Source of the DNA: an uncultured Ruminococcus sp.
GTDB lineage: Bacteria; Bacillota; Clostridia; Oscillospirales; Acutalibacteraceae
DNA: 60,279 nucleotides
NCBI GenBank assembly: GCA_902761375.1
Contig: CACWKB010000004.1
Coordinates: forward strand, 1 to 60,279
Direction: 5' to 3'
The notes under the pieces are model-generated. The model did not search any database. It was not told the origin of the DNA and saw nothing but the letters and a program-made list of their open reading frames with translations. The first letter of the stretch is position 1. Each line of letters begins with the position of its first letter. Below, piece by piece: positions 10,212 to 43,400 of the stretch. The position numbers and the translations under genes were made by a program.

Positions 10212-10236
10212 ATCCAAACGAAGGAAGGATTATGAT

Positions 10237-27195: not shown

Positions 27196-27238
27196 GATCA
27201 GGCAAAAAAATATCATAACGGCAATGGATTTTCCTGCT

Positions 27239-27284
27239 CGGAGACGGTTTGAGCTTTTTGCGGCAAACCGTCTCCGACTTTTTT
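27239..27284 (+). terminator. Terminator of the galactanase gene
   Basis: CGGAGACGGTTTG (27239-27251) pairs perfectly with CAAACCGTCTCCG (27264-27276), followed by AC and TTTTTT. Confidence 0.92.
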
Positions 27285-27365: not shown

Positions 27366-27394
27366 GTTGACACGATTATTCGTATTTGGTATAA
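27366..27394 (+). promoter_or_regulatory. Consensus promoter of the VWA/tubulin-like/GTPase operon
   Basis: TTGACA (27366-27371), 17-bp spacer, TATAAT (27389-27394), a perfect sigma-A consensus. The leader to the VWA gene is about 115 nt. No other comparably strong promoter is seen before the terminator at 43368. Confidence 0.9.
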
Positions 27395-27516
27395 TTTTAT
27401 AAGGCATCCTATGGTCTTTTTTAACAACTATTTCTGAATATTTGATGTGGTTAAGAGCTTAGCGATGCCTGTCGGAATGCGATAAAAATTATATCTGATT
27501 ATGAGGTGTTTAACTT

Positions 27517-29556
27517 ATGAGGAAAAGCATCAGGATATTTTCCGTTTTGTTAGCGCTGATCATGCTGCTGTCGACCGCAGTCGGGGTCGTCTCGGCGGCA
27601 AACGATCAAAAACGGACCTCTAACCGCTTCAACGTTGTGTTTGTAATAGACGCCAGCGGCTCGATGGAGGACACCGACCCCCAAAAGCTTCGCTTTGACG
27701 CGACGACCCTGTTCCTCTCGCTGCTCGCCAACAGCGGCAACCGCGTGGGCAGCGTCGTTTTTGCGACCGGAGTCAAGCAGGTAACCGACCTGCGCGATAT
27801 CAACGGCGTTGACGACAAGCTGTTCATAGAGGGCGAGATCGAGAAATGTCCCGCAGAGGGCTGGACGGCGATCGGCGACGCGTTAAAGACCGCGACCGAT
27901 ATGCTCGAAAAGCAGGGCAATCCCGACAACAAGTCGGTAATCATCCTGCTCAGCGACGGCTACTCCGAGCTCGGCAGCGACGACGCGCTCAAAAAGTGCA
28001 ACGACAATAAGGCTGAGGCGATCCAGGACGCCAGAGACAGAGGCGTTGCGATATATTCCGTCGGTCTGAATGTAAACAACGTCAACGGAGACAAGGGAAT
28101 CAAGGAGCTCAAGCAGATCTCCGGACCCACCGGCGGCGAGTGCGAGGAGGTAAACAAGCCCGAGGATCTCAAAAAAATCTTCCAGCTTTTCTACACGCTT
28201 ATCTACGGCTCCGCTCCGGTGCCTATCGGCGAATATGAGGTTCCCTCAGACGGCAACATCGAAAAAACCTTCCTCGTTCCCAGCGCCGGAGTCGAGGAGG
28301 TCAACATCATTATTTCCTCTAAGAGCAAGATATCCGACATGACCCTTGAAATGCCCGACGGCACCGTTTGGGATGTCAACAAGGTCAAGGGCATGACTGT
28401 TTCCACCAACTCCTTCGCCATCACCAAGCTCGTCGACCCGATGGGCGGCGAATGGACGCTCAGAGCCAAGGGAACCCCGAACGACAAGGTGAAGATCGAG
28501 ATGATCTTCAACGATAACCTTTCGGTCGAGACCGAATGCGACACCGCTCAGGCAAAGGCGGGCTCCAAGCTCCCCGTTTTCGGCTATCTGCTCGAAAACA
28601 ATCAGCGCGCGACAGACGGCTACGCCGATTACCACGCCACCCTGCACGTGACGTTCAACAAATCGGCGGACGAAAAGCCCCGCAACCTCGAGTTCGACAT
28701 GGACCCGCAGAGCTCCTCGTATTACTATGAGCTCCCGATCGACGAGATCGGTCACTATGAGCTTTATATGTCGCTGACCGGAAACGGCACGAACAAGGAT
28801 ACCTCCGACAATATGATAAGATTTGATGTCGGCAACACCTCTCCCGCGATCGGCGACGGCGACAAAAGGCTCAAGGACGGAAGGATCGAGGAGACCATCT
28901 GGTTCATCCCCTTCCTCACCAAGACCCATGAGATACCCGTCGGCGGAATCATTACCGACCCCGAGGACGGCGACGACCTCACATATTCCGTTTCCTCCTC
29001 CAGCTTCAACGATACCACCTATGAGATCGACAGCAATGAGAAAGTGCTGATAATCAAGGACTTCCTCGATCTCTCCAAGGGCAGCGTCACCATCCGCGCC
29101 ACCGACGCCATGGGCGCCTACGCCGAGTTCGACGTGTTGGTTACCATCGTCAATGTCGGCGTCATCGCGATCATCGTGATCGTCGCGGCGGCGGTCATCG
29201 TGGCGGGCATCATCGTCCTGCTGATATACCTGCTGAGCAGAAAGAAATTCATGGGAACCATCACGGTCAGAAACCTCGAGACAAACGCCGTGATGACCCA
29301 GCAGAAGAACAGGGGACACATCAACCTCACCGCCTTCCAGATCGGACACACCGGCTTCCACAAGAAGGCGTGCTTCCAGGCGACGGGCAAGAGCTGGATC
29401 GAGTTCAGGTCGCCCACGCCCGTGCTGAGCTCGTCGAGCGTTTCCAAGGAGAAGAAGATCAAGATCCTCAACCGCAGCGAGATCGAGATCTATTCCGACG
29501 ATTCGCGCACGCGCGGCATAGCGGTGACCTTTGAAAGCTATCTCGGCGGCTATTGA
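27517..29556 (+). CDS. Membrane-anchored von Willebrand factor A domain protein
   Basis: A 679-aa protein and first gene of the nine-gene operon. A signal peptide (about residues 1-28) precedes a VWA domain at about 38-235 with an intact metal site: VIDASGSMED (DxSxS), the Thr region GDALKTATD and the Asp in LLSDGYSE. Beta-rich extracytoplasmic domains follow, including a cadherin-like LTYSVSSSS/VTIRATD segment before one transmembrane helix at about 545-572. The last about 105 residues are cytoplasmic and beta-rich (ITVRNLETNAV ... SEIEIYSD), FHA-like in feel but not diagnosable. It probably binds a ligand outside through metal and passes a signal inside to the operon's cytoplasmic GTPases (inference). 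Confidence 0.88.
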   Translation: MRKSIRIFSVLLALIMLLSTAVGVVSAANDQKRTSNRFNVVFVIDASGSMEDTDPQKLRFDATTLFLSLLANSGNRVGSVVFATGVKQVTDLRDINGVDDKLFIEGEIEKCPAEGWTAIGDALKTATDMLEKQGNPDNKSVIILLSDGYSELGSDDALKKCNDNKAEAIQDARDRGVAIYSVGLNVNNVNGDKGIKELKQISGPTGGECEEVNKPEDLKKIFQLFYTLIYGSAPVPIGEYEVPSDGNIEKTFLVPSAGVEEVNIIISSKSKISDMTLEMPDGTVWDVNKVKGMTVSTNSFAITKLVDPMGGEWTLRAKGTPNDKVKIEMIFNDNLSVETECDTAQAKAGSKLPVFGYLLENNQRATDGYADYHATLHVTFNKSADEKPRNLEFDMDPQSSSYYYELPIDEIGHYELYMSLTGNGTNKDTSDNMIRFDVGNTSPAIGDGDKRLKDGRIEETIWFIPFLTKTHEIPVGGIITDPEDGDDLTYSVSSSSFNDTTYEIDSNEKVLIIKDFLDLSKGSVTIRATDAMGAYAEFDVLVTIVNVGVIAIIVIVAAAVIVAGIIVLLIYLLSRKKFMGTITVRNLETNAVMTQQKNRGHINLTAFQIGHTGFHKKACFQATGKSWIEFRSPTPVLSSSSVSKEKKIKILNRSEIEIYSDDSRTRGIAVTFESYLGGY

Positions 29557-29571
29557 TAACAGAAAATCGTA

Positions 29572-29602
29572 AGCCGGCGGAGTACGTCAGGGTCCGCCGG
29601 CT
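29572..29602 (+). other. Intra-operon hairpin after the VWA gene
   Basis: AGCCGGCGGA (29572-29581) pairs with TCCGCCGGCT (29593-29602), a perfect 10-bp stem without a U-tract. A second hairpin, GTCCCTT/AAGGGAC, lies at 29643-29659. They may adjust mRNA stability or partial read-through between operon genes. Confidence 0.5.
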
Positions 29603-29723
29603 GCGCATAAAGCGAAAATAAGTCCTTCGCAGCTTTCGGGCAGTCCCTTCCTAAGGGACGTCAAGACCGAAACGGCGCGGGCAGAGCATATAACAGAGTA
29701 AAAAATTCCGAGGAGTGTTATTT

Positions 29724-32700
29724 ATGATTTACAAAAACCTATCCATCGCTGCCGGCGGCGGAATCATCGCCCACAATCAGCAGGCTGAGCAGGAGGAGTG
29801 CGCAAACGTATTCATCGGTCTCGGCGGCACCGGCATAAGCTGCCTCAAGGAGGTCAAAAAGCAGGTGTTCAACCGCCTGCAGCCCGACGATCCCACTTCC
29901 GAGATCCCCGAGTACAAGCACATCCAGTTCCTCGCCGTAGACACCGACAGCAGCTCGCTGGGCGACGACTATACCATCAGTACCCTCGATACCGTTACCG
30001 AGTTTGTCGATATGAGCTGCCGCGACATCCGCGGAGTCCTCAGCAACCCCAGAGTGCTCAGACAGAACCCCTCGCTGCAGTGGTTCGGCGAGAACATCAC
30101 TATCCAGAACGCCGAGGCGGGCGCCGGCGGCGTAAGGCAGATCGGCAGACTGCTCACCATCCAGAACTGCGACAACCTCGTAGCCAAGCTCAAGGACAAG
30201 ATCAACAACGCCAGAAGAGGTCTTGAGGGCAAGCCCATCAACATCCATATCTTCACCGGTATGGGCGGCGGCACCGGCTCCGGCAGCTTCCTCGATGTCT
30301 GCTATATCCTGCAGCACGTTCTCGACCAGCTTTCCATCGCCGGTCAGGCTCAGACCTGCGGCTACTTCTTCCTGCCCGACGTCAACCTCGCAAAGGTGAG
30401 CATCCCCGTTGTGCAGCAGTATATCGAGATCAACGGCTTTGCCGCCATGAAAGAGCTCGACTACTGCATGAACCTCCACGACAACGGAGGCGAGTGGAAC
30501 CAGACCTACAACGGCTTTTCCGTAAAGACCAAGGAGCCTCCCGTGAAGCTGGCTCACCTCATCACCGCCAAGAACGAGAACGGAGATATCCTCGTCAACG
30601 GCTACAACTACGCCATGAACGTCGTGGTCGACTACGTCATGGAATTCATGACCAAGCAGCTTGTTGAGCAGGGAACCGAACAGGAATTCGGTCTGCAGTC
30701 GCATATCTCTAACTTCGAGAAGATCGTTGAAGGTCTCAGAAAGAGAAGAGGCGCGCGCTATTACTACTGCGTGCTCGGCGCTTCCAACGCCTATATGCCC
30801 TACAAGGACATCAACACCTACCTTGCCGCGCGTATTTTTGAGTCGATAAACTCCCTCGCGCGCACCAACCACGATATCGACGCGTTTACAAACGACAACG
30901 GTCTCACATATCAGAACCTCCTCAACCAAATCAGACGCGGCGTTCCCTCTATCCCTATCTATGAGGTAGACGCGAAAATGCTCATCGAGCAGACCGTCGG
31001 TCTCGGCCCGGACGGCATTCCTCAGGTGCTCTCTCAGATGAGAGACGCGATCCCGAAGGTCGACGGCACCCTGACCAACAACCGCGAGAGCCAGATCAAG
31101 AGCGTCATCGCCTTCCTCAGACAGAAGCTCACCGAGATGGCTACCATGGCGGACAAGGGTCCGTTCTACGCCGCGCTCATCCTCAAAAACACCGACGTCA
31201 ACGACCGTGACCTCGGAACTATTGTCGAAGGCTATATCCGCCAGAACAACGACAACCTGTCGCTTGCCCGCGCCGACCTCGACAGAAGAGATCAGGATAT
31301 CGCCAACACCCTGCGCGCCCTCCAGAACGGCGGTATGGGCAAGAACAAGAAGGCGAAGGACTACGTCGCCGCCGTTCACGCCTATTACACCCAGCTCGCC
31401 AAGATCTCGCTGTTCAGAGAGATGGGCAACTTCCTCGCTGAGTTCAAGCCCCAGATCAACCAGCTCTACAACGAGATGTTCCAGCCGCTCAACGAGATGC
31501 TCTACAACGTAGCCGAGACCTTCCGTCAGAACTACGTCGATCTTTCCGACAGCGTTAAGAACGACGACGATTACGCGATCAAGATCGTCGGTCTCGACGA
31601 CGACAGCCTCAAGGAGAGCCTCGACGAAGCCGTCGACAGACTCGACACCAGACAGATCGTCATGGACTTCATCGCCCATATGATCAGAAAATCCAAGGAC
31701 TGGATCGGCAAGAGCAGCGACAGCAAGATCTCCGCAACGGTTTCGGAGTTCTTTGTAAACCAGCTCAAGGACTTCACCAGCAGAAGCATCGACTTCTATC
31801 TGCAGACCAAGTTCAACACCGGCTCGCAGGCTGAGCTTGCCAACGCCATCAACCGCAACATCATGAACCGCCTCAAGTCCAAGGCAAAGCCTCTGTTCTG
31901 GGCGGACACCAGCGATGGCGGAATCGATCAGGACAGCAAGATGGGCTACTGCTCCATCCCCAATACCAGCGAGGCCATCGCTGCCGCCGCCGACGAGCTC
32001 AACCGCGCCGATTCGGCTATCAAGAAGAGAAAATCCATCATGCCCGACAGGATCTCGCTGCTCATTTTCTACTGCGGCGTTCCCATGTTCCAGTTCAAGG
32101 GCTCGTTCAACTACAAGCCCAAGTACAGCGCCAGCACCTACAAGGGCGTCCACCTCTATGAGGGTACCGCTCAGGATCCCAGAGACTTCGGCGAGCTCCA
32201 CGACATCGTGCCTCTCAGCCTGCTCAAGCCCGACGAGATCACCGAGAAGGTCGCCAATTTCATCGCCGACTACAAGAAGGCATGCGACAAAAAGATCATC
32301 CTCAAAAAAGAGGTCGGCAACACCGGCGATCAGGTCGAATACTATATCCAGCTCATCGACAGGGAAGACCTCGATAACAAGATCGCAAAGCTCGACAAGT
32401 ACCTCAACGACGGCAATCCCGAGCGCATGAAGAAGTTCCGCGAGAATCCCGCCAACGTCACCGTCACCTTCAACGGCTCGATCGCCCTGCCCAACACCGG
32501 CGCGCCCGGCTACAAGGACGACGTCATCAAGGATCACGTCTTTGCCTCCAATTTCCTCAAAAAGGCTATGCTCGACCAGCTCGAGCTGATCAAAGCTCTT
32601 GACGATAAGGTCGCCGCAGTCGACAAGATCATCAACGAGGGCAGCCAGAAGGATAAGGATATGCGCGATTTCTCCAACGCGATCTGCACAGGCGCGGTAT

Positions 32701-33068
32701 TCATGGAGAATAAGTTCACCTTCAAGTACATCAAGGACGACGACGGCTTCATCGACGAGTTCGATCTGTCCACGATCGACACTCAGCCCTTCGGCGAGTC
32801 GATCCCGCTCTACAGCGCCTTTGTCGAGTTCACCAAGCTCGACGACGAGGACAAGGCGGAGCTTGCCAAGATCGCCCGCGAGCGCCAGCTCAACGACGAG
32901 GACACCTGCCTTGATTACACCAAAAAGATCAAGGAATACCTCGAGAAGAGAGCCGATCTCATCAAGGATGTGGCGACCGATTCCTACAGAACCGAAAGAA
33001 AGGAAATCCATGTCTTTGTGGATTCGCTGCAGAAATTCGTAAGGAATTTCGAGAGGAAATTACTGTAA
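29724..33068 (+). CDS. Tubulin/FtsZ-like protein (Tubulin_2 type)
   Basis: A 1,114-aa protein whose first about 350 residues carry the tubulin/FtsZ nucleotide site: FIGLGGTGISCLKE at about residues 31-44, FLAVDTDSSS at about 70, and the tubulin signature GMGGGTGSGSF at about 178-188. This matches the large bacterial tubulin-like (PF13809-type) proteins, far from FtsZ and TubZ in length. The remaining about 750 residues are mostly helical, with charged stretches, and match nothing I know. It would bind and perhaps hydrolyse GTP; whether it forms filaments is unknown. ATG 29724 has GAGGAG 8 nt upstream. There is no membrane segment. Confidence 0.88.
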   Translation: MIYKNLSIAAGGGIIAHNQQAEQEECANVFIGLGGTGISCLKEVKKQVFNRLQPDDPTSEIPEYKHIQFLAVDTDSSSLGDDYTISTLDTVTEFVDMSCRDIRGVLSNPRVLRQNPSLQWFGENITIQNAEAGAGGVRQIGRLLTIQNCDNLVAKLKDKINNARRGLEGKPINIHIFTGMGGGTGSGSFLDVCYILQHVLDQLSIAGQAQTCGYFFLPDVNLAKVSIPVVQQYIEINGFAAMKELDYCMNLHDNGGEWNQTYNGFSVKTKEPPVKLAHLITAKNENGDILVNGYNYAMNVVVDYVMEFMTKQLVEQGTEQEFGLQSHISNFEKIVEGLRKRRGARYYYCVLGASNAYMPYKDINTYLAARIFESINSLARTNHDIDAFTNDNGLTYQNLLNQIRRGVPSIPIYEVDAKMLIEQTVGLGPDGIPQVLSQMRDAIPKVDGTLTNNRESQIKSVIAFLRQKLTEMATMADKGPFYAALILKNTDVNDRDLGTIVEGYIRQNNDNLSLARADLDRRDQDIANTLRALQNGGMGKNKKAKDYVAAVHAYYTQLAKISLFREMGNFLAEFKPQINQLYNEMFQPLNEMLYNVAETFRQNYVDLSDSVKNDDDYAIKIVGLDDDSLKESLDEAVDRLDTRQIVMDFIAHMIRKSKDWIGKSSDSKISATVSEFFVNQLKDFTSRSIDFYLQTKFNTGSQAELANAINRNIMNRLKSKAKPLFWADTSDGGIDQDSKMGYCSIPNTSEAIAAAADELNRADSAIKKRKSIMPDRISLLIFYCGVPMFQFKGSFNYKPKYSASTYKGVHLYEGTAQDPRDFGELHDIVPLSLLKPDEITEKVANFIADYKKACDKKIILKKEVGNTGDQVEYYIQLIDREDLDNKIAKLDKYLNDGNPERMKKFRENPANVTVTFNGSIALPNTGAPGYKDDVIKDHVFASNFLKKAMLDQLELIKALDDKVAAVDKIINEGSQKDKDMRDFSNAICTGAVFMENKFTFKYIKDDDGFIDEFDLSTIDTQPFGESIPLYSAFVEFTKLDDEDKAELAKIARERQLNDEDTCLDYTKKIKEYLEKRADLIKDVATDSYRTERKEIHVFVDSLQKFVRNFERKLL

Positions 33069-33082
33069 TAGCATTTATTCAG

Positions 33083-33115
33083 AGCTCCAAATACCCGTAT
33101 TGGGTATTTGGAGCT
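33083..33115 (+). other. Long perfect hairpin after the tubulin-like gene
   Basis: AGCTCCAAATACCC (33083-33096) and GGGTATTTGGAGCT (33102-33115) form a 14-bp perfect stem with a 5-nt loop. No U-run follows, so it is not a standard terminator; the rest of this 230-bp gap (33116-33298) shows no promoter I can support. Confidence 0.6.
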
Positions 33116-33298
33116 TCGGAAATAAAGGTAATACTGTTCATTTGTCAAGGGAGCCGATCGGGTACCGGTATTCGCAGAGGCGATTTGTCATCCGCCGCGA
33201 AAACGCCGACGCCCGATCAAAGCGCTTTTGATGATAATTAAAATCAGACAATCCGCAGAGTCCGATAATGCGGCATTGATAAAAAAGAAGGTTAGACT

Positions 33299-35206
33299 AT
33301 GAGCATTGATCAGCTATTGGACAGGGTAAAATCAAGTATAGACGACGAAAACCTGCGCACCAACAGCGTGGGCAACAGACCGCATTATCCCGTGTTCGTC
33401 GCGTTCAGCGGAGCGCAGCTTCCCGAATGCGCCGCGTTCACGAACAATATCAGCCGCATCTGGTCGCGCCAGATCTGCAGGAACCTGCTGTTTTACCGCT
33501 ATGAGCCCTCGGACGGCGGAGTGCGCTTCACCTCTGCCGAGTCCGACGAGGCGGTCGACCACGACAAGGTGTACCGCAGGATCAGCGAAGCCTCGAGAAC
33601 GCGCGACATCTTCTCGGGTCTGGACACATGGTGTCTGTATAACATCATCGATACCTCGAATTTTTCCTTTGAGCAGTTCGAGGCGTCATACCGTTCTCTC
33701 GGCGCGCTGCGCTATGTTGTAGACGAGAACGTCCGGTCGATGGTGCTGGTCATCCTCAGGGAATCGCGCGAGCACGAGCGCAAGGCGATAAACTACCGCA
33801 TCCGCGAATTCCTGATAAACGCAAACGACTACGACGGAGTGATGCTGGTCTCGAACCGTTCGCGCGGAGGCACCGAATTCACCCCGGAGGATATTTACAA
33901 GATCGCGTCCAACGCGGTGCTGCTGTCCGACAACGACGCGGTATCGGCGATCGACGACAAGTGTTATCTGGAGCGCAACATCAAGCTCTACAGCGGCAAG
34001 CCGATCATAATGTCTTACAACTCGCTGAGCAAGCCCACAAAGGAGATCCTGCACTGCATGACGGAGAGCTTTGTCAAGGCTGTGCGCGAGAGCATCACCG
34101 GCGCGGACAACAGGCGTATGTACGCCAATGATATCGACGCCGTCATCGGCATCTCGAACGGAAGGCTGATGCACTTCGAGGGCTTCATCAACAGCGTGAG
34201 GAACGAGCTTGCGGGCTCGATACCGCCGGACTTCTTCCTCTATCTTCCCATGATGTCTCCGACGGTGCTGACCGACGCCGACCTGAGCACCAAGCGCTTT
34301 GCCGAGATCAAGCACCTGTTCAACATAGATTCGCTTGTGCTGACCGCGCGCAGCTACTGCCGCAGGCTGGTTTCCGGCGACGAATCAAAGCGGCTTTTCG
34401 AGAGCTACCGCGAAAGCATAAACGAGAACCTTAACCTTTTGAACATAAACAATATTTCCGAGGAGGGCATCGCCAACGCGTTCAACGCGATCATGGACAA
34501 CAACAGGGTCAACGAGGGTATGCCGATCCGGGATTACTACATAAATCTGATCATTTGCATGATCAAGAACGAATTCATCTATCCCTTCTGCCGCGATACC
34601 TTCAAGTCGATCTGCGACGCCGACAATATCCGCAACGCGGGACGCAGCATCGAGGAGTTTGAGCGTCGCCTTGAGGATGAGGCTCCGCTTTCGGGCTTCG
34701 ACGAGATCGCCCAGCTCTACGGCGGCTATATGAAGGAATTCACCGGGACGGACGAGGGCAAAAAGCGCATAAGGGAATTTGCCGCCATCGGCAATACCTA
34801 TGACGATCTGATGAGGATCGTCGAGGAGACGCTGCACGACGCAAACGAGTTCTGCAACGGCAACATCAATATGCCCTACATCCAGCTTTGGGCGAACGCC
34901 CTCAAGCTGAAGCACCCGGCGGCGATCTTCCACCAGATCAAGCACATCCTCGACGGCGAGGGCGACAACGCCATCCTGCTTCGCGGCTCCTTCCCCGTGA
35001 TCAGGGAGCTGGCGGTGTACTCGCTGCATTGCTACGACCGCAACGGCGAGAACAACACCTGGCTGTACGACCAGTTCCGCGAGGCGTTCAGCTCGCTCAA
35101 CGACGTTCACTTCTTCAATTCGGGAAGCGAGGACACGATCGAATCGATCAAATTCTACAAGTGCGAGGGTACCAATCTTATTTTGGGACTCGATCCGATA
35201 GATTAA
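33299..35206 (+). CDS. Operon protein of unknown family (635 aa)
   Basis: A 635-aa soluble protein of no family I recognise. The first about 240 residues look alpha/beta and Rossmann-like (YPVFVAFSGAQLPECAAF, VRSMVLVILRES, YDGVMLVSNRS), and the rest is mainly helical. There is no signal peptide, membrane helix or Walker motif. It follows the tubulin-like gene after 230 bp and is 16 bp from the next gene. By position it is most likely a partner of the tubulin-like protein, but this rests only on gene order. Confidence 0.7.
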   Translation: MSIDQLLDRVKSSIDDENLRTNSVGNRPHYPVFVAFSGAQLPECAAFTNNISRIWSRQICRNLLFYRYEPSDGGVRFTSAESDEAVDHDKVYRRISEASRTRDIFSGLDTWCLYNIIDTSNFSFEQFEASYRSLGALRYVVDENVRSMVLVILRESREHERKAINYRIREFLINANDYDGVMLVSNRSRGGTEFTPEDIYKIASNAVLLSDNDAVSAIDDKCYLERNIKLYSGKPIIMSYNSLSKPTKEILHCMTESFVKAVRESITGADNRRMYANDIDAVIGISNGRLMHFEGFINSVRNELAGSIPPDFFLYLPMMSPTVLTDADLSTKRFAEIKHLFNIDSLVLTARSYCRRLVSGDESKRLFESYRESINENLNLLNINNISEEGIANAFNAIMDNNRVNEGMPIRDYYINLIICMIKNEFIYPFCRDTFKSICDADNIRNAGRSIEEFERRLEDEAPLSGFDEIAQLYGGYMKEFTGTDEGKKRIREFAAIGNTYDDLMRIVEETLHDANEFCNGNINMPYIQLWANALKLKHPAAIFHQIKHILDGEGDNAILLRGSFPVIRELAVYSLHCYDRNGENNTWLYDQFREAFSSLNDVHFFNSGSEDTIESIKFYKCEGTNLILGLDPID

Positions 35207-35222
35207 TGCAGGCGGTGATGAT

Positions 35223-35885: not shown

Positions 35886-35900
35886 AGCGAGGAGATAAAA

Positions 35901-37427
35901 ATGAGTCGTGAAAGTATAATTTGCCCGTATTGCTTCGAGACCTTCAGGCATGACGAGGTGCTTTTCAGGGCGGAGACCTGCTACACCGAGGACGACATCC
36001 TCGATGATTACGATATCGACATGATGCCCGACGGCGAGGAAAAGATGAGGGCAAGAGAGACCAACGAGCTGAAAAAAGCCTTCCTCGCGGGCGTACACCC
36101 CAGATATCAGGAATTCTGGGAGAGATACAACGGCACCACCGAGCAGACCAGACGCAGCACCTCCCGTTCGCTGGGTCAGGGCATCGAAAACTACCAGAAG
36201 CCAGTCATCAACCCCAGAGATCCGCGGATGGTGCGCTTCAACGCGCCCGGCGGAAACGGCGTCGAGCTCGACAAGGACGGCTTCCTGTCCTCGGTGATCG
36301 ACATCATGGGCAACCACACCAGCAGCCGCGTCTGTCCCAGATGCTGCAACCCCCTGCCCCACAACTACGGAAAATTCCCCGTGAAGTTCATCTCGGTCAT
36401 CGGAATCACCGGCGCCGGCAAAACCGTATATCTGTCGAGCCTGCTCGATAATATGTACGACTACGCCGATAAGATCGGAATGACCCCGCTGCCGAGCGAA
36501 TCGGTAAACTTTTTCATCGAGCTAAACAAGATCGCGCGCGACGTGGTGCTGCCTCAAGGTACCTCTCCCGAGCGAATGTCCCAGCCGCTGTGCTATAATC
36601 TGCAGTACTTCCATCAGGGCAAGGGCATCCGGGAGACCTCGACCTTTGTAATCTACGATATCGCGGGCGAGAACTGCGTCAATCCCCAGGGCATAACCAA
36701 CTTCGGAAAGTTCATCTCGCATTCCGACGGCATCATCATCCTCCAGGATCCCAAGCAGTTCAAGGATATTTACGGCGAAGCCCACACCATGACCCAGTCG
36801 GTGCTCAACACGATCATCAGCCTGTTCGTCGGCAAGAGATACTGCGACATCCCGATGGCGCTGTGCATCTCAAAGTGCGACCGCCTGATCTCGGACGGTC
36901 TGCTCGGAAGCGGACTGATCGACATGCTCTCCTCGGAGGTGAAGTCGGCTGAGGATTTCAGGGGCTTCTGCGCCAAGGATTACAACAACATCAGCAAGGA
37001 GATCGACGCCTTTTATCACGACCACGACAATCCCACCCGTACCGCGCTCAAGAACTCCTTTGACAATTTCAACTACTTTGCGGTGTCCTCGCTCAACTGC
37101 CGCCTCGAGGAGAGCTCGGAGATCAGCAGCATCGACGGCGAGAAGATCCTCATGCCCGCCGAAAAGCCGCATCCCATGCGCATCGAGGAGCCGCTGTTCT
37201 GGCTGTTCACCCAGTTCGGCTTCATCAAGAGCGACATCCCGATCATCAATCACGCCGTAGTAGGCAGGGTCGAGCGCCTCAACCACGACAAGAAGCTCTT
37301 TATGGAGGAGCTTCAGAGGCTTGAGAGCAAGAGGATAATCATGCCTCCCACCAAAAAGAAGATAAACGAGTGCAAGGCGAGCATTGACGAGATAAACCGT
37401 CTGATCAGAGAACTGACAAGCTATTGA
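35901..37427 (+). CDS. Zinc-ribbon P-loop GTPase (double-GTPase-like)
   Basis: A 508-aa soluble protein. Two Cys pairs, CPYC at residues 8-11 and CPRC at about 145-148, probably form one zinc ribbon split by a long charged insert. The GTPase domain starts right after: G1/Walker A GITGAGKT at about 168-175, G3 YDIAGEN at about 252-258, and a G4-like ISKCDRL at about 322-328. The layout (zinc ribbon then TRAFAC-type GTPase, next to a GAP1-like gene) matches the DO-GTPase2 group proposed by comparative genomics for conflict systems. The C-terminus is a short coiled coil. ATG 35901 follows GAGGAG. Confidence 0.82.
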   Translation: MSRESIICPYCFETFRHDEVLFRAETCYTEDDILDDYDIDMMPDGEEKMRARETNELKKAFLAGVHPRYQEFWERYNGTTEQTRRSTSRSLGQGIENYQKPVINPRDPRMVRFNAPGGNGVELDKDGFLSSVIDIMGNHTSSRVCPRCCNPLPHNYGKFPVKFISVIGITGAGKTVYLSSLLDNMYDYADKIGMTPLPSESVNFFIELNKIARDVVLPQGTSPERMSQPLCYNLQYFHQGKGIRETSTFVIYDIAGENCVNPQGITNFGKFISHSDGIIILQDPKQFKDIYGEAHTMTQSVLNTIISLFVGKRYCDIPMALCISKCDRLISDGLLGSGLIDMLSSEVKSAEDFRGFCAKDYNNISKEIDAFYHDHDNPTRTALKNSFDNFNYFAVSSLNCRLEESSEISSIDGEKILMPAEKPHPMRIEEPLFWLFTQFGFIKSDIPIINHAVVGRVERLNHDKKLFMEELQRLESKRIIMPPTKKKINECKASIDEINRLIRELTSY

Positions 37428-37440
37428 TAAGGAGGCTGTT

Positions 37441-39831
37441 ATGAGCTATATTACCCCTTATCGCGTGGTATACACACGCATCGGTACACAAGAAAGCTGG
37501 GCGGGCTGGACGATCGCGGGCTATTCCGAGGGAACTCCCAATGAGGTCCTGCACAACTGCTCCAAGCTCCAGGCGAGAAACTCCGATAAGGCGAAGTTCA
37601 TGTTCGACAAGGTGCACAAGGAGCGCAGAGACGACGCCCGCGAGGTTTACGAGTTTTTCTGCGATTACGGAAGCACCGAGAGCAAGGTGTTCACCTTCAC
37701 CAAAATGCTGTTCGGAGATTCCGACGAGAGCGGAAGGACCGGCATGAGCTCCGCCTCGGTCTGCGTGCCGCTCTTCGAGAACGAGGATATCCTCAAAAAG
37801 CCCCAGACCCTGCTGACGATCGACAGGGAGTGCTTTGACGACTGCAAGCTCAACACCGAGCTGCTGGCTCAGGCGAGCGGCAAGAACCATTTCAGCATAC
37901 CGGAGCTTCAGACAAGGTTTGAGCCCAAGAAATATGTCTGCAAGGACAGCTTTGACGTCGGAAAGGCGGTCTCCGAGCTGTTCGGCAGCAAAAAGGCTTA
38001 TGAAAACCTGATAAAATGCATCTACTGGAACCTGACCTTCAAGTCGTCGTCCTCGATATTCATCTGCACCGACGGCGACCTCGACAAGGAGATACGCCTG
38101 TTTTTGACGATCTTCAACTCGGTGCTGTATTCCTTCCGCACCAAGCTCAGCTTCCGCACCTTTGACTTTGCGGACGCGAACACCCAGCCTACGCTCGTGT
38201 TCTGCCGCAGGGTACCCAACGGAGTAAAATACTACGATATCAGAACCGGCAACAACAACATCCTGACCGATTCCATAATGATAAAGCTCAACCGCTCGTC
38301 GATGAATTACTATCCGCAAAACGTCGGCAAGCCCGCGGCGGAGAAGTATTTCGACCTGTTCGAGCAGACGCTCGATGAGCTCGGGAACCGCAGCGCGACG
38401 GACGTGGGACTGCTTGAGACCGCCTTTGTGTTCGTTCAAAACGAGCTCGAGGGTGAGGTCGCCCAGAGCGACAAGGAGCTTGTCCGCAAGCTGATCACCG
38501 TCTGCAATCTTCCCTACAACAACGAGAAGATCGACGGCTACATCGCCGGACTGCTCGAGACCGTCATCGAGAACGACATCCCGCTCAACGACGACATCCG
38601 CAGTCATATCGACAAAAAGCTCAGCGTCACCTCCTGCAAAAAGCTGATCGAGGCGGGAATAAGGTACAACGCGAAGAATCTGCTGTCCGAGCCCAAGGAA
38701 AAGGCTTACGAGCGGCTTTACAGACTGAAGGAAAGCGACGCGAGCTACGAAAAGGTCATCGAATATATCAAGCTGGAGCCCAAGGGAAAGTCGTTCATCG
38801 ACCGCTTCTTCGGCGAATACTACGGTCCCGCCAAGGTAAGGCAATGGTCATCCCTGATGGAGTTCGCCAAGGAGACCGCAGACGTCACGCCGCGCGTGAG
38901 CATCGAGGCGTTCCTCAAGAACTGCTGCGAGAAGCTGGGCGAGAGCATCGTTCTGCGCTTTTTCAGTACGGGGAACCACATCGACGCCGATCTGAAGAAA
39001 TTCGGCGAGACGCTCAGGGCGCTTTATCCGAATTCGGCGACCCCGGACGAGATACTCAGGGACACCTGCGTGCGCTTCTGGGAAAACGCCAAGATACCCG
39101 ACTACGACTACAGCTACGCCGCGGACTACCGCCTGGTGGCGTGCTCGAATCCGAGGCTCTATCCCTCTGAGGCGGTGCGCAAGAGCAATCTGTTCGGCAG
39201 GCTCACGGAGATCTACGGTACGGCGGCAAAGTGCAATCCGAACACGGTGCGCGGGCTGAAAAACAAGCTCGAGGAGACCGACCTTACCTCCGCCGAGCAG
39301 CGCAGAATGCTCCTGAAATTCCGCGATTACTGCCTTGATCACTGCGACACCGCCGACCATCTCGATTTCTGGATAGCGCTTGCGGAGCTTGATCCGCGCT
39401 CGAAATTCGAGTTCATCTTCAACAATCGGATCCGCATATTCTGCAATGAAAACAGCTACGAGAGCGCGCTGATCCGCTCTTCCGAGATGAACGACGCCGA
39501 GAAGCTCGGAAAATTCCGCTTGGAGCTCGAGGCGTACCGCAGGCTGAACGACACCAAAACCGCAGCCGCGATCTGGGATATAACCCATCGCCGCGAGGCT
39601 GAGCTCAGAAAAAAGCAAAAGCACGAGAAAAAGCGCCCTGAGCCCGAGAAGAAGCAGCCTGAGTCCGAAAACAAGCGAAAAGAGCCGGATCGCTCGCGCG
39701 ACATCTACTCCTCGTCGGAGCCCTCGCAGAAGAGGAGCGGCGGCGAACGCAACAGTCCCGCGCATTCAGACGACGGCGAAAAGCGCGAGACCATACTGAA
39801 AAACATCTTCAACAAATTCAAAAAGAACTAA
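37441..39831 (+). CDS. GTPase-associated protein 1-like (GAP1-N2-type N-terminus)
   Basis: A 796-aa soluble protein. The N-terminal about 280 residues resemble the GAP1-N2 domain: SYITPYRVVYTRIG, ESWAGWTIAGYSEG with its conserved Gly-Trp, and SFRTKLSFRTFDF. The middle and C-terminal parts are long helical regions like the GAP1-M/C segments, and the last about 100 residues are a charged, Lys/Glu/Pro-rich tail (EKKRPEPEKKQPE) of low complexity. Such proteins are known only as constant neighbours of the GTPases, and the tight spacing here (13 bp after the GTPase gene) fits. They are thought to regulate or scaffold the GTPase; this is not proven. Confidence 0.72.
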   Translation: MSYITPYRVVYTRIGTQESWAGWTIAGYSEGTPNEVLHNCSKLQARNSDKAKFMFDKVHKERRDDAREVYEFFCDYGSTESKVFTFTKMLFGDSDESGRTGMSSASVCVPLFENEDILKKPQTLLTIDRECFDDCKLNTELLAQASGKNHFSIPELQTRFEPKKYVCKDSFDVGKAVSELFGSKKAYENLIKCIYWNLTFKSSSSIFICTDGDLDKEIRLFLTIFNSVLYSFRTKLSFRTFDFADANTQPTLVFCRRVPNGVKYYDIRTGNNNILTDSIMIKLNRSSMNYYPQNVGKPAAEKYFDLFEQTLDELGNRSATDVGLLETAFVFVQNELEGEVAQSDKELVRKLITVCNLPYNNEKIDGYIAGLLETVIENDIPLNDDIRSHIDKKLSVTSCKKLIEAGIRYNAKNLLSEPKEKAYERLYRLKESDASYEKVIEYIKLEPKGKSFIDRFFGEYYGPAKVRQWSSLMEFAKETADVTPRVSIEAFLKNCCEKLGESIVLRFFSTGNHIDADLKKFGETLRALYPNSATPDEILRDTCVRFWENAKIPDYDYSYAADYRLVACSNPRLYPSEAVRKSNLFGRLTEIYGTAAKCNPNTVRGLKNKLEETDLTSAEQRRMLLKFRDYCLDHCDTADHLDFWIALAELDPRSKFEFIFNNRIRIFCNENSYESALIRSSEMNDAEKLGKFRLELEAYRRLNDTKTAAAIWDITHRREAELRKKQKHEKKRPEPEKKQPESENKRKEPDRSRDIYSSSEPSQKRSGGERNSPAHSDDGEKRETILKNIFNKFKKN

Positions 39832-39840
39832 GGAATAATC

Positions 39841-40869
39841 ATGAGTCATATTCTGAGTCCCGAAAACATTCTGATCAGTCTGTTGTCGGGCTACAACACC
39901 TATTTTTGCACGGAAAACCGCGCCCAGCTTCCGACGAGCGACAGACCGGCGCTGGTGCTGCAGCATCTGCGCAGCAACGAGACGTTTTACGCTATCGCCA
40001 TTGCGACCCCGTACATCGCCTACAACAACATGGCGTTTATCGGAAGATGGAGAAGGCTGGTCGAGTATCCCTGCGGCCGCGGCTTTTTGTGGCCGATAGA
40101 TTTGGTATATCAGACGAACGGCGAGAACCAGTGCTATCTCGTATATCCGTTCCGCAATATGGCTCCGTACAAGAGTATGTCGGAGCTGTCTAAGACGCGA
40201 AAATTCTTCGGTCTCGATCACAGAATGACGCGCGACATTGCGATGGCGTTTTTGAACGCCTACGAGTCGCTTGAGCGCAACAACTACCTTTACTTCGGGC
40301 TCGACGACGACGATATCTTCATCAACACCCTCGACGGCAGAGTGCTTATCCCCATCAACGAGCGCATCAGCATCGACAAGCGCGAGCGTCTGAGCTTTAC
40401 GAACAGGGAATATCTGTCCGAGGTCATCGACCCCTACTGCTACGCGAACCGAAAGATCACTCCGGGCTCAAACGACGTCTATTCCTATGACATCGACTCC
40501 GAGAGGTATGCGTTCATCTCGATACTGTTCCGCCTGCTGATCGGACTGTACCCGTATGAGGGACCGTATATGGACGAATACGAGTATAATGTCGAGAGCG
40601 AGAACAACAGGGACTGGATCTATCATTACCTCCAAAACCCCGTCTTTATATTTGACGAAAACGACACCAGCAACTCGATCGCCAATTTTAAAAAGAACGA
40701 GGAGCACCTCAAGCGCTGGGGAATGCTGACCGAACGCCTGAGGGAGATGTTTGCAAATACCTTCGTCAGCGATAATGTGATGCGCAGGGGCACCGTCACC
40801 CAGTACGCGGCGGCTGAATGGCGCGCGGCTCTCGAGGAATGCTTCCGCGAGACAAAGCCGATCGATTAA
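39841..40869 (+). CDS. Degenerate protein kinase-like protein (pseudokinase)
   Basis: A 342-aa protein that follows the outline of a bacterial Ser/Thr kinase domain but has lost its catalytic residues. The hinge region is FLWPIDLVY ... CYLVYPF (about residues 81-102), the helix-E and catalytic-loop region is YLYFGLDDDDIFINTLDG (about 149-166), where HRD is missing, DFG is replaced by INE, and the later helix-F region is YAFISILFRLLIGLYPYEG (about 221-239). No Gly-rich loop is clear. It would bind partners or nucleotide rather than phosphorylate. The kinase identity is an inference from motif order, less certain than the other calls. Confidence 0.6.
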   Translation: MSHILSPENILISLLSGYNTYFCTENRAQLPTSDRPALVLQHLRSNETFYAIAIATPYIAYNNMAFIGRWRRLVEYPCGRGFLWPIDLVYQTNGENQCYLVYPFRNMAPYKSMSELSKTRKFFGLDHRMTRDIAMAFLNAYESLERNNYLYFGLDDDDIFINTLDGRVLIPINERISIDKRERLSFTNREYLSEVIDPYCYANRKITPGSNDVYSYDIDSERYAFISILFRLLIGLYPYEGPYMDEYEYNVESENNRDWIYHYLQNPVFIFDENDTSNSIANFKKNEEHLKRWGMLTERLREMFANTFVSDNVMRRGTVTQYAAAEWRAALEECFRETKPID

Positions 40870-40919
40870 CAAAAGCGCTTTTCGCGCTCCCGAAAATCAG
40901 GGGAACCAAGAGGGATACT

Positions 40920-41942
40920 ATGAACAATAAGCTAAACGAATATGTGCAGCAGTACGGCAGAGAGGCGCTCTTTGACGGACAAATGCTGCGCGATTTCCTC
41001 GACCCGGAGCATACCGAGTCGAAATACATCAACCGGCTAATGCTGGCGCTTCAGTGCGGAAGCCTGAACAACTGGCTCGAGAGGGCGGAAAATTCGATTT
41101 CCGCCGTCGAGCTCAACACGATACTGATCAATACCGTCAACCTTTCGGGCCTCAAGCAGAGGACGGTCCGTACTCTGCTCGAGGATATCCTGACCGCCGC
41201 CGAGATAAGCTACCCGTCGAACACTCTGCTCGGCTTTGACACCGAAACGGGAGCCGTGAGCAGCGTGGATTGCCTTTATGACGTGCGCGAAGCGGCGCAG
41301 GACCTGAGGCTTGCGGAACAGTTTTCACAGGACGGCACCGACGAAGGACGAAAAAAGGCGGTTGATATCTACAGTACGCTTGCGAAGCGCGGAGACGCCG
41401 AGGCTATGTATATGCTCGGCGTGATGAAGCGCAGGGAGCTCAACAGCGAGGAGGCCTACGGAAGAAAGCTCAACGCCGAGGACAAAAAGCGCCTCGGCGA
41501 CGAGGCGATACGCCTGCTCGAGACCTCGGCTGCCGACGGCTACGGAAAGGCAAAAAGCGAGCTCGGCGATATCTACTACGAGCGGGGCAACTACGACAAG
41601 GCTTATGAGTACTACACAGCTCCGGGTGTGGTGACGGTCTTTCCCCATACAAAGGAGCATGTCGTCAACATCCTCAACCTCCGCCGCGCAAATCTGATCA
41701 TGATAATACTCGGCGGATTGCTCACGGCGCTGCTGTGGATGTTTCTGGCGTTAAATCACGTTTCTGCGCACAATTCATTCGAGCTCCTCGGTCTGGGCAT
41801 ACCGGTGAGCGTCATCGCTACGCTCATCTACGCCTCGATGCTCCTCGTCCGCTTCCGCTTCAAGTATGCGGACCTCAAGCCGTTTCTGTTTGCGATGGCG
41901 GCGGTTTGGGCGATATTTCCGCTGTTTGCGGCGATCTTTTGA
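40920..41942 (+). CDS. Membrane protein with effector-associated-like N-terminus and Sel1/TPR repeats
   Basis: A 340-aa protein. The first about 95 residues are helical (LNEYVQQYGREALFDG, YINRLMLALQCGS) and resemble the N-terminal adaptor domain found on varied signalling and conflict-system proteins in Clostridia. Residues about 140-235 hold two Sel1/TPR-type repeats (YSTLAKRGDAEAMYMLGVMK; GKAKSELGDIYYERG). Three transmembrane helices occupy about 255-340. The ATG at 40920 has AGAGGGAT upstream; the longer frame overlaps the previous gene. It could dock the soluble operon products at the membrane (inference). Confidence 0.7.
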   Translation: MNNKLNEYVQQYGREALFDGQMLRDFLDPEHTESKYINRLMLALQCGSLNNWLERAENSISAVELNTILINTVNLSGLKQRTVRTLLEDILTAAEISYPSNTLLGFDTETGAVSSVDCLYDVREAAQDLRLAEQFSQDGTDEGRKKAVDIYSTLAKRGDAEAMYMLGVMKRRELNSEEAYGRKLNAEDKKRLGDEAIRLLETSAADGYGKAKSELGDIYYERGNYDKAYEYYTAPGVVTVFPHTKEHVVNILNLRRANLIMIILGGLLTALLWMFLALNHVSAHNSFELLGLGIPVSVIATLIYASMLLVRFRFKYADLKPFLFAMAAVWAIFPLFAAIF

Positions 41943-41953
41943 GGGGGGCAGTT

Positions 41954-43345
41954 ATGAAATCGATTCCGTATTTAAAATTTCTGACGGCAAACCTCTGCAC
42001 CCTGCTCCTGCTCGTGTTCGCCCTGATCTCGCACTATTCGCTGACGGGACTCATCGTTTATCTCGTCGGCGCGGGAATGCTGTTTTTGGGAACGCTCGGC
42101 GACAGCAAAAACGTGCGCTACGGCGTAGCCAATAAGACCGGCTTTTATCTTTTCATTGCGTGTATAATCCTGATCGGCATCAGGCTGCCGGATATGATTC
42201 CGGCGCTGCGCTTCGACGGCTCGTCAAACGGCTTCGGGAAAATGTCCTTCGGCACAGGCTCGCCTAATTTCGCCGCCGCTCTGCCGGGGCTTGCGGGCAT
42301 GATAGGCTTCATCATCGCGTCCTCAAAGGTCAAGAGCTACGTTTTGAAGATCTGCTTCGGCTCGCTGGCTCAGACCTTCGGCTTTCTGCTGTTTTACGGC
42401 ATTTTCGGGCTGCCGATCCGGACCTTCCCGTTCATAGTCGCGGTCGAGGCGTTGTTTGCGTTCTGCCGCGTCTATGCGAGCAAAAACATAATATACAACG
42501 GCGATTCCGGCGCCTCCAAGCGCACCGCGCACAGCTTTATGGCGCTGATCATCTGCGCCTGCGTGGCGGTTGCGACGCTGCTCTACCCGAGCTATGCGAT
42601 CTCCGCGACGAACGGCGAGCACATAGCCAAGCTTGTCAAATCGCTGACCGAGGGTTTTAACCTGCCTGTGTTTGTGACGGTTATGGCGGTCGCGGCGGCG
42701 CTGTTCATGTTCTCGGAGCTTAAATCGGATGTCAAGGGCTCCGCGGACGCCTACCTTGCGGTCTCGCTTGCGGGGCTTGCGATCTCGATCAGGGTGCTGC
42801 TCACCCATCTGTCGATCGGCGGCGCGATAATCTGCGCGGCTTCGGCGGTAGCCTACTACCTTGTGGGCTTTTCGATGCTCTCGTTCATGCCCTCGTCGGA
42901 CAAAAGCAATCCCATATACTGGATGCTCGGCAAGGGACGGTTCGCCGCCGTGCTGTATTCGGCGATAGTTTCCGCTATGGCGGCGTTCTCGATACTGTTC
43001 ATGTACAGGGGCAGCATCGTGTCCTATCTGATTTTGGTCTGCGGAGTGGTGCTTGCGCTTACGTCAAAGAGGATATTCCGCGGCCTCGCCGCGGCGGAGG
43101 CGATCCGCTGGCAGATCATACTGCTCACGGTCTACGCCTTCACGATGAGCGTTTCCGTGATCAACGGCACGATAGGAAAAACCTGGATGCTCCTGACGGC
43201 GGTGTTCGTGCTCTTCTCGATCGTGATGTGGGGGCTCGGACTGCGCGACGGAGTGAACCTGCCCAAGAAATACCGCGCTTTCAAGGTCGCGGGCTGTGTG
43301 ATAGCCGGAGCGATAAGCGTTATCGCGGTGATAACCTTCGGTTGA
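41954..43345 (+). CDS. Polytopic membrane protein, last gene of the operon
   Basis: A 463-aa protein made almost wholly of about 14 hydrophobic helices with short loops, and no recognisable transporter, enzyme or signalling motif. The first helices (LTANLCTLLLLVFALISHYSL) start directly, without a cleaved signal. ATG 41954 follows GAGGGGGG, 11 bp after the Sel1 gene, so the two membrane proteins are translated together. A longer frame from 41735 overlaps that gene and is rejected. It may be the membrane output or anchor of the system (inference). Confidence 0.7.
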   Translation: MKSIPYLKFLTANLCTLLLLVFALISHYSLTGLIVYLVGAGMLFLGTLGDSKNVRYGVANKTGFYLFIACIILIGIRLPDMIPALRFDGSSNGFGKMSFGTGSPNFAAALPGLAGMIGFIIASSKVKSYVLKICFGSLAQTFGFLLFYGIFGLPIRTFPFIVAVEALFAFCRVYASKNIIYNGDSGASKRTAHSFMALIICACVAVATLLYPSYAISATNGEHIAKLVKSLTEGFNLPVFVTVMAVAAALFMFSELKSDVKGSADAYLAVSLAGLAISIRVLLTHLSIGGAIICAASAVAYYLVGFSMLSFMPSSDKSNPIYWMLGKGRFAAVLYSAIVSAMAAFSILFMYRGSIVSYLILVCGVVLALTSKRIFRGLAAAEAIRWQIILLTVYAFTMSVSVINGTIGKTWMLLTAVFVLFSIVMWGLGLRDGVNLPKKYRAFKVAGCVIAGAISVIAVITFG

Positions 43346-43367
43346 TCGCATCAAAGATCAATAAACG

Positions 43368-43400
43368 GCTCCGATCGTTTTGACCGTCGGAGCAGTTTTT
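43368..43400 (+). terminator. Terminator of the nine-gene operon
   Basis: GCTCCGA (43368-43374) pairs with TCGGAGC (43387-43393), with an extra inner CG/CG pair, then AG and TTTTT. Confidence 0.85.

Follow-up and report, generated by a model that had tools for sequence, protein, structure and literature searches.

Do the nine codirectional genes at 27517-43345 of a 60,279-nucleotide stretch of DNA from an uncultured Ruminococcus sp. (the window) form a single system, and what might such a system do? The initial annotation had proposed one operon with nine codirectional genes, encoding an undescribed signalling or defence system. All nine open reading frames are present in the ORF map of the window. 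Start codons were refined using ribosome-binding sites and conserved N-termini, giving ATG starts for the tubulin gene (29724), the Sel1 protein gene (40920) and the last gene (41954); the ORF list begins the tubulin gene earlier, at GTG 29715. The features, from left to right, are as follows.

27238-27277, + strand: terminator-like hairpin, 14-bp perfect arms followed by a T-run (-27.9 kcal/mol, z -6.3)
27367-27395, + strand: sigma-70-type promoter, TTGACA-17-TATAAT, 12/12, with TG before the second hexamer
27517-29556, + strand: VWA protein, 679 aa (PF00092, 3.5e-17)
29572-29602, + strand: hairpin between the VWA and tubulin genes, perfect arms of 10 bp (-23.9 kcal/mol, z -3.9)
29724-33068, + strand: tubulin-like protein of the FtsZl1/Tubulin_2 type (PF13809, 3.2e-60), with GMGGGTGSG
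33083-33115, + strand: RNA hairpin 3' of the tubulin gene, 14-bp perfect arms, no T-run (-26.5 kcal/mol, z -7.9)
33299-35206, + strand: O635, a 635-aa orphan (AlphaFold2 pLDDT 90.2)
35223-35885, + strand: O220, a 220-aa orphan with predicted tandem fibronectin-III-like domains (AlphaFold2 pLDDT 94.3)
35901-37427, + strand: DO-GTPase (PF19993, 7.9e-6, 26.1 bits against a cut-off of 27)
37441-39831, + strand: GAP1 protein of the GAP1-N2 type, identified through orthologues only, no TM segment
39841-40869, + strand: pseudokinase (5.6e-12 between the family profile and protein kinases)
40920-41942, + strand: Sel1/TPR-like protein whose C-terminal part has about three TM segments (Sel1 in 19/31 aligned members)
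41954-43345, + strand: polytopic membrane protein (hydrophobic segments)
43363-43400, + strand: intrinsic terminator, arms 43363-43374 and 43387-43398 (-16 kcal/mol, z -3.5)

The first hairpin lies 3' of the upstream GH53-dockerin gene and marks the left boundary of the gene set. The promoter is perfect, as had been claimed, with coordinates one base off those first given. The promoter scan returned 13 sites in total with at least nine matches versus 8.9 +- 2.8 in shuffled sequences, and so only the perfect 12/12 site stands out. The terminator that had been placed after the ninth gene was likewise recovered; its TTTTT (43396-43400) begins within the 3' arm, and 3 of 200 shuffles folded equally well. 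A pattern scan with a loop limit of 8 did not list it.

Co-occurrence was assessed in a comparison set of 80 publicly available loci surrounding related GTPases, and the proposal of a single system withstood this test. The orphan genes lie beside the GTPase gene in 54 of the 80 loci, the tubulin gene, both orphans, GTPase and GAP1 occur together in 42, and the first eight families in 24; all nine families are in view by profile in only 9 of 54 loci, many loci being cut. The 26 loci lacking O635 or O220 consist of L139, three (L102, L110 and L131) whose stretch starts at or just before the GTPase gene, or after it, and 22 distant ones (L158-L179, from Actinomadura and kin, archaea and one Clostridiales) for which the matches were limited to the GTPase and sometimes a vWA protein. 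The nearest named genome in the set is that of Ruminococcaceae bacterium P7 (L100), apparently an isolate. Gene order across the 80 loci is strongly kept: O635-O220 in 47/52, O220-GTPase in 50/50, GAP1-pseudokinase in 38/51 and pseudokinase-Sel1 in 35/40. The pairing of GTPase with GAP1 that had been suggested is invariant, with GAP1 following the GTPase in 51/51 loci that have the next gene in view (four others end there). A single Tubulin_2-type gene precedes O635 in 30 of 35 loci with the upstream vWA gene in view (window included), a count that is approximate because metagenome contigs split some genes. A second vWA gene lies downstream in 13 of 53 O635 loci (window included), the window itself having one vWA gene, and both tubulin number and tail genes vary among loci.

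The claim of tight spacing across most junctions is roughly correct. With the refined starts the intergenic gaps are, in order, 167, 230, 16, 15, 13, 9, 50 and 11 bp; spacing of 9-16 bp thus holds at five of the eight junctions, but not at the two wide gaps, both of which contain strong hairpins without T-runs (29572-29602 and 33083-33115). The wide gaps and the strong hairpin after the tubulin gene could be taken to separate two transcription units, vWA-tubulin and then the seven genes past the 230-bp gap. We consider this division improbable, because the window hairpin has no T-run, the promoter scan gave no promoter-like match in the 230-bp gap, and the order across the gap (tubulin ahead of O635) is kept in 45 of 48 loci. 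The hairpin itself is a new observation: a strong RNA hairpin often recurs 3' of the tubulin gene, in 18 of 25 testable gaps, and by a simple count 2 of these 18 have a T-rich tail (L152 just missed).

The VWA protein is a membrane protein, as had been suggested, with an N-terminal hydrophobic signal, the vWA domain, a TM segment near 552-570 and a tail of about 100 aa; it carries the MIDAS motif DASGS, and the strict form D.SGS occurs in 18 of 30 vWA proteins of the compared loci. The tubulin GTP loop is found in 42 of 45 copies of at least 1000 aa, and Tubulin_2 has one match in the window's own genome (79% complete). Two CxxC motifs (CPYC, CPRC) precede the GTPase P-loop GITGAGKT, and DIAGE is also present. 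Within the GTPase family the P-loop is universal (59/59) and the two CxxC motifs ahead of it nearly so (58/59), with D.[AP]GE (50/59) and an NKxD-like motif (47/59) less constant. Against PDB sequences, no match stronger than E 0.08 was obtained for the tubulin and GTPase profiles, and the GAP1 profile found no matching structure.

The Pfam families named in advance were only partly recovered. VWA and Tubulin_2 matched, and DO-GTPase2 fell below the cut-off in the window and reached 29.0 bits, above the cut-off of 27, in the homologue of L094. The window GAP1 protein itself matched neither GAP1-N2 nor GAP1-M, and PF20013 was not found in its own genome (79% complete); the identity comes from the six aligned orthologues, two of which match GAP1-N2 (best 4.9e-8) and two GAP1-M (best 7.3e-6). 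In control searches the genome of Corynebacterium glutamicum gave both a Tubulin_2 and a GAP1-N2 match, which need not be neighbours. The pseudokinase and Sel1 membrane protein assignments both stood, again by way of orthologues. In the pseudokinase family consensus, Arg replaces the catalytic Lys and the Asn of the HRD motif, and DFS replaces DFG; read from the alignment, the HRD Asp is changed too in the window protein. The window Sel1 protein has only weak TPR matches below the Pfam cut-off. The gene that follows the pseudokinase-Sel1 pair encodes at least six TM segments in 32 of 34 places with a view of it (window included).

A further regularity, new here, links GAP1 to the membrane. None of the eight GAP1 genes encoding at least two C-terminal TM segments has a pseudokinase gene within the next four genes, versus 37 of 42 among the remaining GAP1 genes with a later gene in view. 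This exclusion pattern is as expected if the pseudokinase and Sel1 protein anchor GAP1. It has exceptions, in that 5 of the 42 also lack a pseudokinase and L148 has both a GAP1 with one TM segment and a pseudokinase, and 7 of the 8 TM-bearing GAP1 genes fall in one clade of the GTPase tree and are therefore not independent cases.

The two orphans acquire assignments from structure prediction that are new here. O220 models as tandem fibronectin-III-like domains: tandem FN3 structures head its fold search (E 9.2e-4, probability 0.99), with a whole-chain TM of about 0.3 (0.31) against FN3 pairs, and a Pfam search gave no match. O635 models as a tubulin-like fold, with a predicted alpha/beta domain without the GTP loop followed by a mostly helical part. 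Judged by title and chain length, tubulins and CetZ make up 47 of the 50 listed PDB matches, among which there is no vWA protein. Rank 1 is Drp1, the best tubulin-type match is CetZ2 (2.6e-3, TM 0.36 of target), and no PDB match reaches E 0.001 or better. A sequence-detectable second tubulin was considered and rejected, since hhalign against tubulin profiles gave 1% or less, that is, no profile similarity, and Tubulin_2 was found in 1 of 45 family members, at 0.092. The GGGTG[ST]G loop occurs in 0 of 52 O635 proteins. These negative sequence tests would fit another Rossmann-like fold, vWA-like or new, with a helical tail and no tubulin relative. In the model the first helix is followed by a strand hairpin, as is usual in vWA folds, and the matches from a viral fold library were mixed, both vWA proteins and tubulins being among them. 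Against this stands the predominance of tubulins and CetZ among the PDB matches listed, and we judge a non-tubulin fold rather unlikely.

From the gene content, order, conservation, domain identities and GAP1 anchoring pattern we infer the interactions, polymerisation, signal and purpose of the following model. As a variant of the tubulin-theme GAP1-N2 DO-GTPase systems, the gene set would encode a tubulin apparatus that is tethered to the membrane and gated by a GTPase; we give this reading an even chance. An envelope event would be reported by the vWA ectodomain together with the polytopic protein, while the pseudokinase and Sel1 membrane protein would keep GAP1 and its GTPase at the membrane. 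Turnover by the GTPase, together with GAP1 and the FNIII-like adaptor, would license tubulin assembly, with O635 as a non-GTP-binding tubulin partner or cap, and the polymer would then remodel or wall off membrane. The route first suggested, in which vWA and membrane proteins pass a signal on to a module of GTPase and tubulin, is plausible and agrees with the anchoring pattern of GAP1. A more specific version is unlikely: a conditional cytoskeleton of active tubulin and pseudo-tubulin, assembled at the membrane on a vWA signal via GTPase-GAP1 held by pseudokinase-Sel1, with the hairpin setting an excess of tubulin over the switch.

The same apparatus might instead sense infection at the envelope and contain or kill the cell, as an anti-phage or conflict system. 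Kaur 2020 (PMC7159879), in its treatment of the class, predicts a role in conflict with invaders, and no experiment on this role was found in the literature searched. The distribution would suit defence: O635 occurs in 4 of 394 genomes of the order, and relatives are spread across Clostridia, a Lactococcus, a Bifidobacterium and Coriobacteria-type genomes. The GTPase tree adds two Actinomycetota placements, no proof of transfer in themselves (the long-branched L148, L119 and L157 are unsure in placement). Patchy presence and these two placements point to an accessory system, but a patchy distribution suits accessory functions of every sort. Variation in tubulin number and in tail genes would also fit defence, as would single defence-type matches in the flanks, among them IetA (4.1e-35), a reverse transcriptase (6.4e-27) and a mads protein (1.6e-24); the locus flanks as a whole matched 100 PADLOC families among 99 ORFs, a figure without baseline, 25 of them listed each by one ORF. 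On the other side, the nine proteins gave only two weak matches in PADLOC 2.0.0 (E 0.004 and 0.013), and a catalogued anti-phage system was rejected on this ground; carriage on plasmids or viral contigs was also considered, and no relative was found with two protein probes of plasmids or one scan of viral contigs. A defence role is possible but less likely than not.

An envelope or membrane-remodelling machine with no part in defence, acting in vesicle formation or in cell-wall or membrane stress, has a chance somewhat short of even. Such a role was proposed for FtsZl1 operons by Makarova and Koonin (PMC2875224), in whose account the vWA, GTPase, kinase-like and membrane parts recur. Several components of the gene set are membrane proteins, an L,D-transpeptidase gene lies downstream in the near relative L031, and a DO-GTPase protein is noted with phage-shock operons in PMC11237479. 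However, within the genus and the order the set is too rare to serve a core envelope function, and the transpeptidase link is seen in one locus only. If the preferred model of a GTPase-gated tubulin apparatus is true, bacteria use a switchable tubulin polymer beyond division or plasmid and phage segregation. A described class of tubulin systems now has a defined, conserved gene set, the two orphans have testable assignments, and GAP1 anchoring has a clear prediction.

The suggestion of an undescribed system in the initial annotation is not supported; the kind has been in print since 2010 (PMC2875224) and 2020 (PMC7159879). Certain four-gene loci of the same taxonomic order encode a vWA protein, Tubulin_2, a protein of about two TM segments and a very large membrane protein; they share vWA followed by tubulin with the window, but the stretches retrieved matched neither GTPase nor GAP1, and their third and fourth genes match no window profile. 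The gene set matches the FtsZl1/vWA operons of Makarova and Koonin, as far as the operon description in PMC2875224 goes, in its FtsZl1 tubulin with GGGTG(S/T)G, vWA protein, P-loop GTPase, kinase-like protein and lineage-specific membrane proteins. The window kinase, however, is degenerate, and the GAP1, FNIII-like and O635 parts are unnamed in that operon description. An OmpA-family protein accompanies those operons in several genomes only and so is not required; Pfam gave no OmpA match in the nine window proteins.

The gene set also matches, as a variant, the GAP1-N2 GTPase-centric (DO-GTPase) systems with the tubulin theme, which were predicted from genome comparisons (Kaur 2020, PMC7159879). 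In the sections of that paper on these systems, as in the window, a DO-GTPase with a zinc-binding N-terminus is followed by GAP1, together with a tubulin, a vWA protein with an extracellular domain, membrane association and an FNIII-like component (in the window a candidate, by predicted fold only). The polar C-terminal extension on GAP1 of the Firmicutes theme is shared too, 81% of the last 100 residues of the window protein being polar. The Firmicutes layout has two tubulin and two vWA genes, whereas the window has one sequence-detectable tubulin and one vWA gene, and because of the single vWA gene we call the window a variant rather than the theme as printed. The pseudokinase, Sel1-type membrane protein and polytopic protein are additional to the tubulin-theme text, and the second tubulin of the Firmicutes theme may be the O635 protein.

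The nine open reading frames of the initial annotation, with their perfect promoter and terminator, were confirmed on the window sequence, which is contig C4 of a 1.59 Mb, 79%-complete genome. The genes run in the order vWA, tubulin, O635 and O220 (orphans of 635 and 220 aa), GTPase, GAP1, pseudokinase, Sel1 protein and polytopic membrane protein. With start codons refined via ribosome-binding sites, the successive junctions measure 167, 230, 16, 15, 13, 9, 50 and 11 bp. The left boundary is a terminator-like hairpin 3' of an upstream GH53-dockerin gene.

27367-27395, perfect promoter
33299-35206 (+), O635
35223-35885 (+), O220
43363-43400, terminator closing the operon

An antisense open frame of 1090 aa (29739-33011, minus strand) covers nearly the whole tubulin gene and is probably a codon-usage mirror effect. 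The downstream neighbour (43491-45011) codes for a protein with a sigma factor domain of the ECF type (Sigma70_r4_2, 1.6e-14); beyond this domain we read a TM segment and a region rich in Pro and Thr. This gene was not observed within the conserved unit.

Scanning genome contigs with an alignment of six GTPase sequences produced 110 stretches and 89 relatives, of which 80 loci were retained; genes in them were called by iterated profiles. O635 or O220 is present at 54 of the 80, and among these 54 the families in view are vWA (41), tubulin (46), O635 (52), O220 (50), GAP1 (51), pseudokinase (36), Sel1 protein (34) and, by profile, the last membrane protein (11). Tubulin, O635, O220, GTPase and GAP1 occur all together at 42 of the 54, the first eight families at 24 and all nine at 9, many stretches being cut by contig or fetch ends. 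Across the 80 loci, O635 is preceded by tubulin in 45/48 cases (4 more at an end) and followed by O220 in 47/52, O220 by the GTPase in 50/50, GAP1 by the pseudokinase in 38/51 and the pseudokinase by Sel1 in 35/40. GTPase and GAP1, counted only for loci with O635 or O220, adjoin in 51/51 (4 more at an end). The gene 3' of a pseudokinase-linked Sel1 gene has at least 6 TM segments in 32 of 34 places, the window included; the last gene thus varies in sequence and is constant in kind. Within the order, O635 was found in 4/394 genomes, all four at Tubulin_2 loci, and Tubulin_2 itself in 34/394 genomes of the order and 13/161 of the genus. By these counts the unit is real and patchy, and the earlier view of the nine genes as a single system is supported.

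In the GTPase tree (56 rows), the rows closest to the window are Ruminococcaceae bacterium P7 and an uncultured Clostridia bacterium. Starred branches force two changes for the Actinomycetota, and the row of a Lactococcus adjoins a Clostridia row; neither placement is proof of transfer. Bifidobacterium callimiconis carries three consecutive GTPase-like genes (1054, 1201 and 525 aa) after the polytopic gene (L131:4920-13402). In a phylum sample, GAP1-N2 was found in 7/299 genomes (L180-L186), the four strongest all belonging to one family with genome sizes of 5.6-7.3 Mb. The nearest relatives of the window, which has one Tubulin_2 copy, hold four (G105, L027-L028) or three in tandem (G176, L030). 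In G176, the region 3' of the system (L031:10402-11646 and 9366-10712) encodes a TM-containing L,D-transpeptidase (YkuD, 3.3e-7) and a TM protein with a zinc ribbon and a C-terminus that looks alike on visual inspection.

A different Tubulin_2 layout, in which vWA and tubulin are followed by a protein of 590-800 aa (1-3 TM segments) and a very large one reaching about 1940 aa (2-6 TM segments), was seen in 28 stretches (L032-L037, L039, L040, L042, L043, L073, L075-L079, L082, L083, L086-L088, L091, L092, L095-L099). A few have vWA or tubulin out of view or behind an antisense ORF, and none has a GTPase/GAP1 match. The very large protein weakly matches the putative metallopeptidase family DUF6782 at both loci tested (0.0077 and 6.3e-6).

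The vWA protein has an N-terminal hydrophobic signal, DASGS, one additional TM segment and a short tail; the strict pattern D.SGS recurs in 18/30 homologues. The window tubulin (Tubulin_2, 3.2e-60) carries GMGGGTGSG, and a [GS]GGTG[SA]G loop, a pattern set after the copies were inspected, is present in 42 of 45 tubulin copies of at least 1000 aa. The GTPase has two CxxC motifs, a P-loop and DIAGE; 59 homologues show two CxxC in 58, the P-loop in 59, D.[AP]GE in 50 and an NKxD-like motif in 47, and the DO-GTPase2 score is slightly below the Pfam cut-off in the window and above it at locus L094. No domain match was found for the window GAP1 protein, and the same domain search matched GAP1-N2 in 2/6 and GAP1-M in 2/6 aligned orthologues. 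Pseudokinase membership rests on a weak Pkinase match in 8/36 family members and on the family profile against kinases (5.6e-12); motif positions are altered and, in our reading of the alignment, the HRD Asp is retained in one clade. Of the members aligned for the Sel1 protein, 19/31 match Sel1.

The AlphaFold2 model of O635 has a pLDDT of 90.2. Among the best 50 of 1002 PDB matches (E <=10), 47 are tubulin/CetZ by title and chain length, the others standing at ranks 1 (Drp1, probability 0.57), 5 and 21; CetZ2 aligns at E 2.6e-3 (probability 1.00, TM 0.36 of target), and no PDB match reached E <=0.001. A viral fold library returned a mixed list, with dynamin at rank 1 (probability 0.30), a vWA protein at rank 2 (0.84), PhuZ at rank 14 (0.47) and a phage tubulin at rank 20 (0.82). 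In the model, a strand/helix succession up to residue 269 closes with a 23-residue helix at the tubulin H7 position, an order that agrees with a tubulin-type domain. Against such a relation, tubulin profiles showed no similarity to O635, Tubulin_2 matched 1/45 members (at 0.092), and the GTP loop is absent from 52/52 O635 proteins. From the modelled fold, O635 is probably a pseudo-tubulin.

GAP1 genes encoding at least two C-terminal TM segments occur at 8 loci, and a pseudokinase lies within the next four genes at none of these; among the remaining GAP1 genes for which any later gene is visible, it is present in 37/42 and absent in 5/42. L148 pairs a one-TM GAP1 with a pseudokinase. Fisher's test gives 2e-6 for this alternation, an overstatement because seven of the eight loci share one clade in the tree (L120 lies outside). 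The simplest reading is that the pseudokinase together with the Sel1 protein, and perhaps also with the polytopic one, provides in trans the membrane anchor that other GAP1s carry themselves.

The gap after the tubulin gene often encodes an RNA hairpin. Of 46 tubulin-O635 gaps, 25 are at least 40 nt long; 18 of these 25 contain a 45-nt hairpin of <=-18 kcal/mol, a line picked after a first look at the data, and 16 do better than all 40 shuffles. The same measures give 7/20 and 5/20 for the vWA-tubulin gap and 4/36 and 5/36 for six other junctions pooled (Fisher for the tubulin-O635 gaps against each, 0.018 and 1.5e-6, respectively, related loci not being independent). The stems vary in sequence between loci, and by simple count only 2/18 have a T-rich tail (L152 is a near miss), so most are not plain terminators. 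They may instead stabilise or process the mRNA, which would lift tubulin above the later genes.

In its core features the operon matches the GAP1-N2 GTPase-centric systems of Kaur et al. (PMC7159879): a GTPase, GAP1 through its orthologues and, at the fold level, a putative FNIII component. The O220 model (pLDDT 94.3), whose fold search puts tandem FN3 structures on top (E 9.2e-4, probability 0.99, TM 0.31), agrees with the FNIII component named there. The operon also shows the core of their tubulin theme and fits the FtsZl1/vWA description of 2010 (PMC2875224, also consulted in part); it is therefore a variant of an already described class, and the initial description of it as undescribed is not supported. 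In the parts consulted, both papers give function as a prediction, and among the papers listed by searches of the open literature none was seen to report experiments on an operon of this kind. The mechanism, with signalling through vWA and membrane proteins, is inferred. What makes the operon interesting is its conserved anatomy, together with the probable pseudo-tubulin and the alternation in GAP1 anchoring; each can be tested directly. Kaur et al. mention GAP1 with C-terminal TM segments, and the TM/pseudokinase alternation is not among the points found in the consulted part (PMC7159879). The Firmicutes layout as printed there differs from the window, whose vWA gene is single and in which sequence reveals one tubulin gene; the second tubulin of Kaur et al. 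could be the O635 protein.
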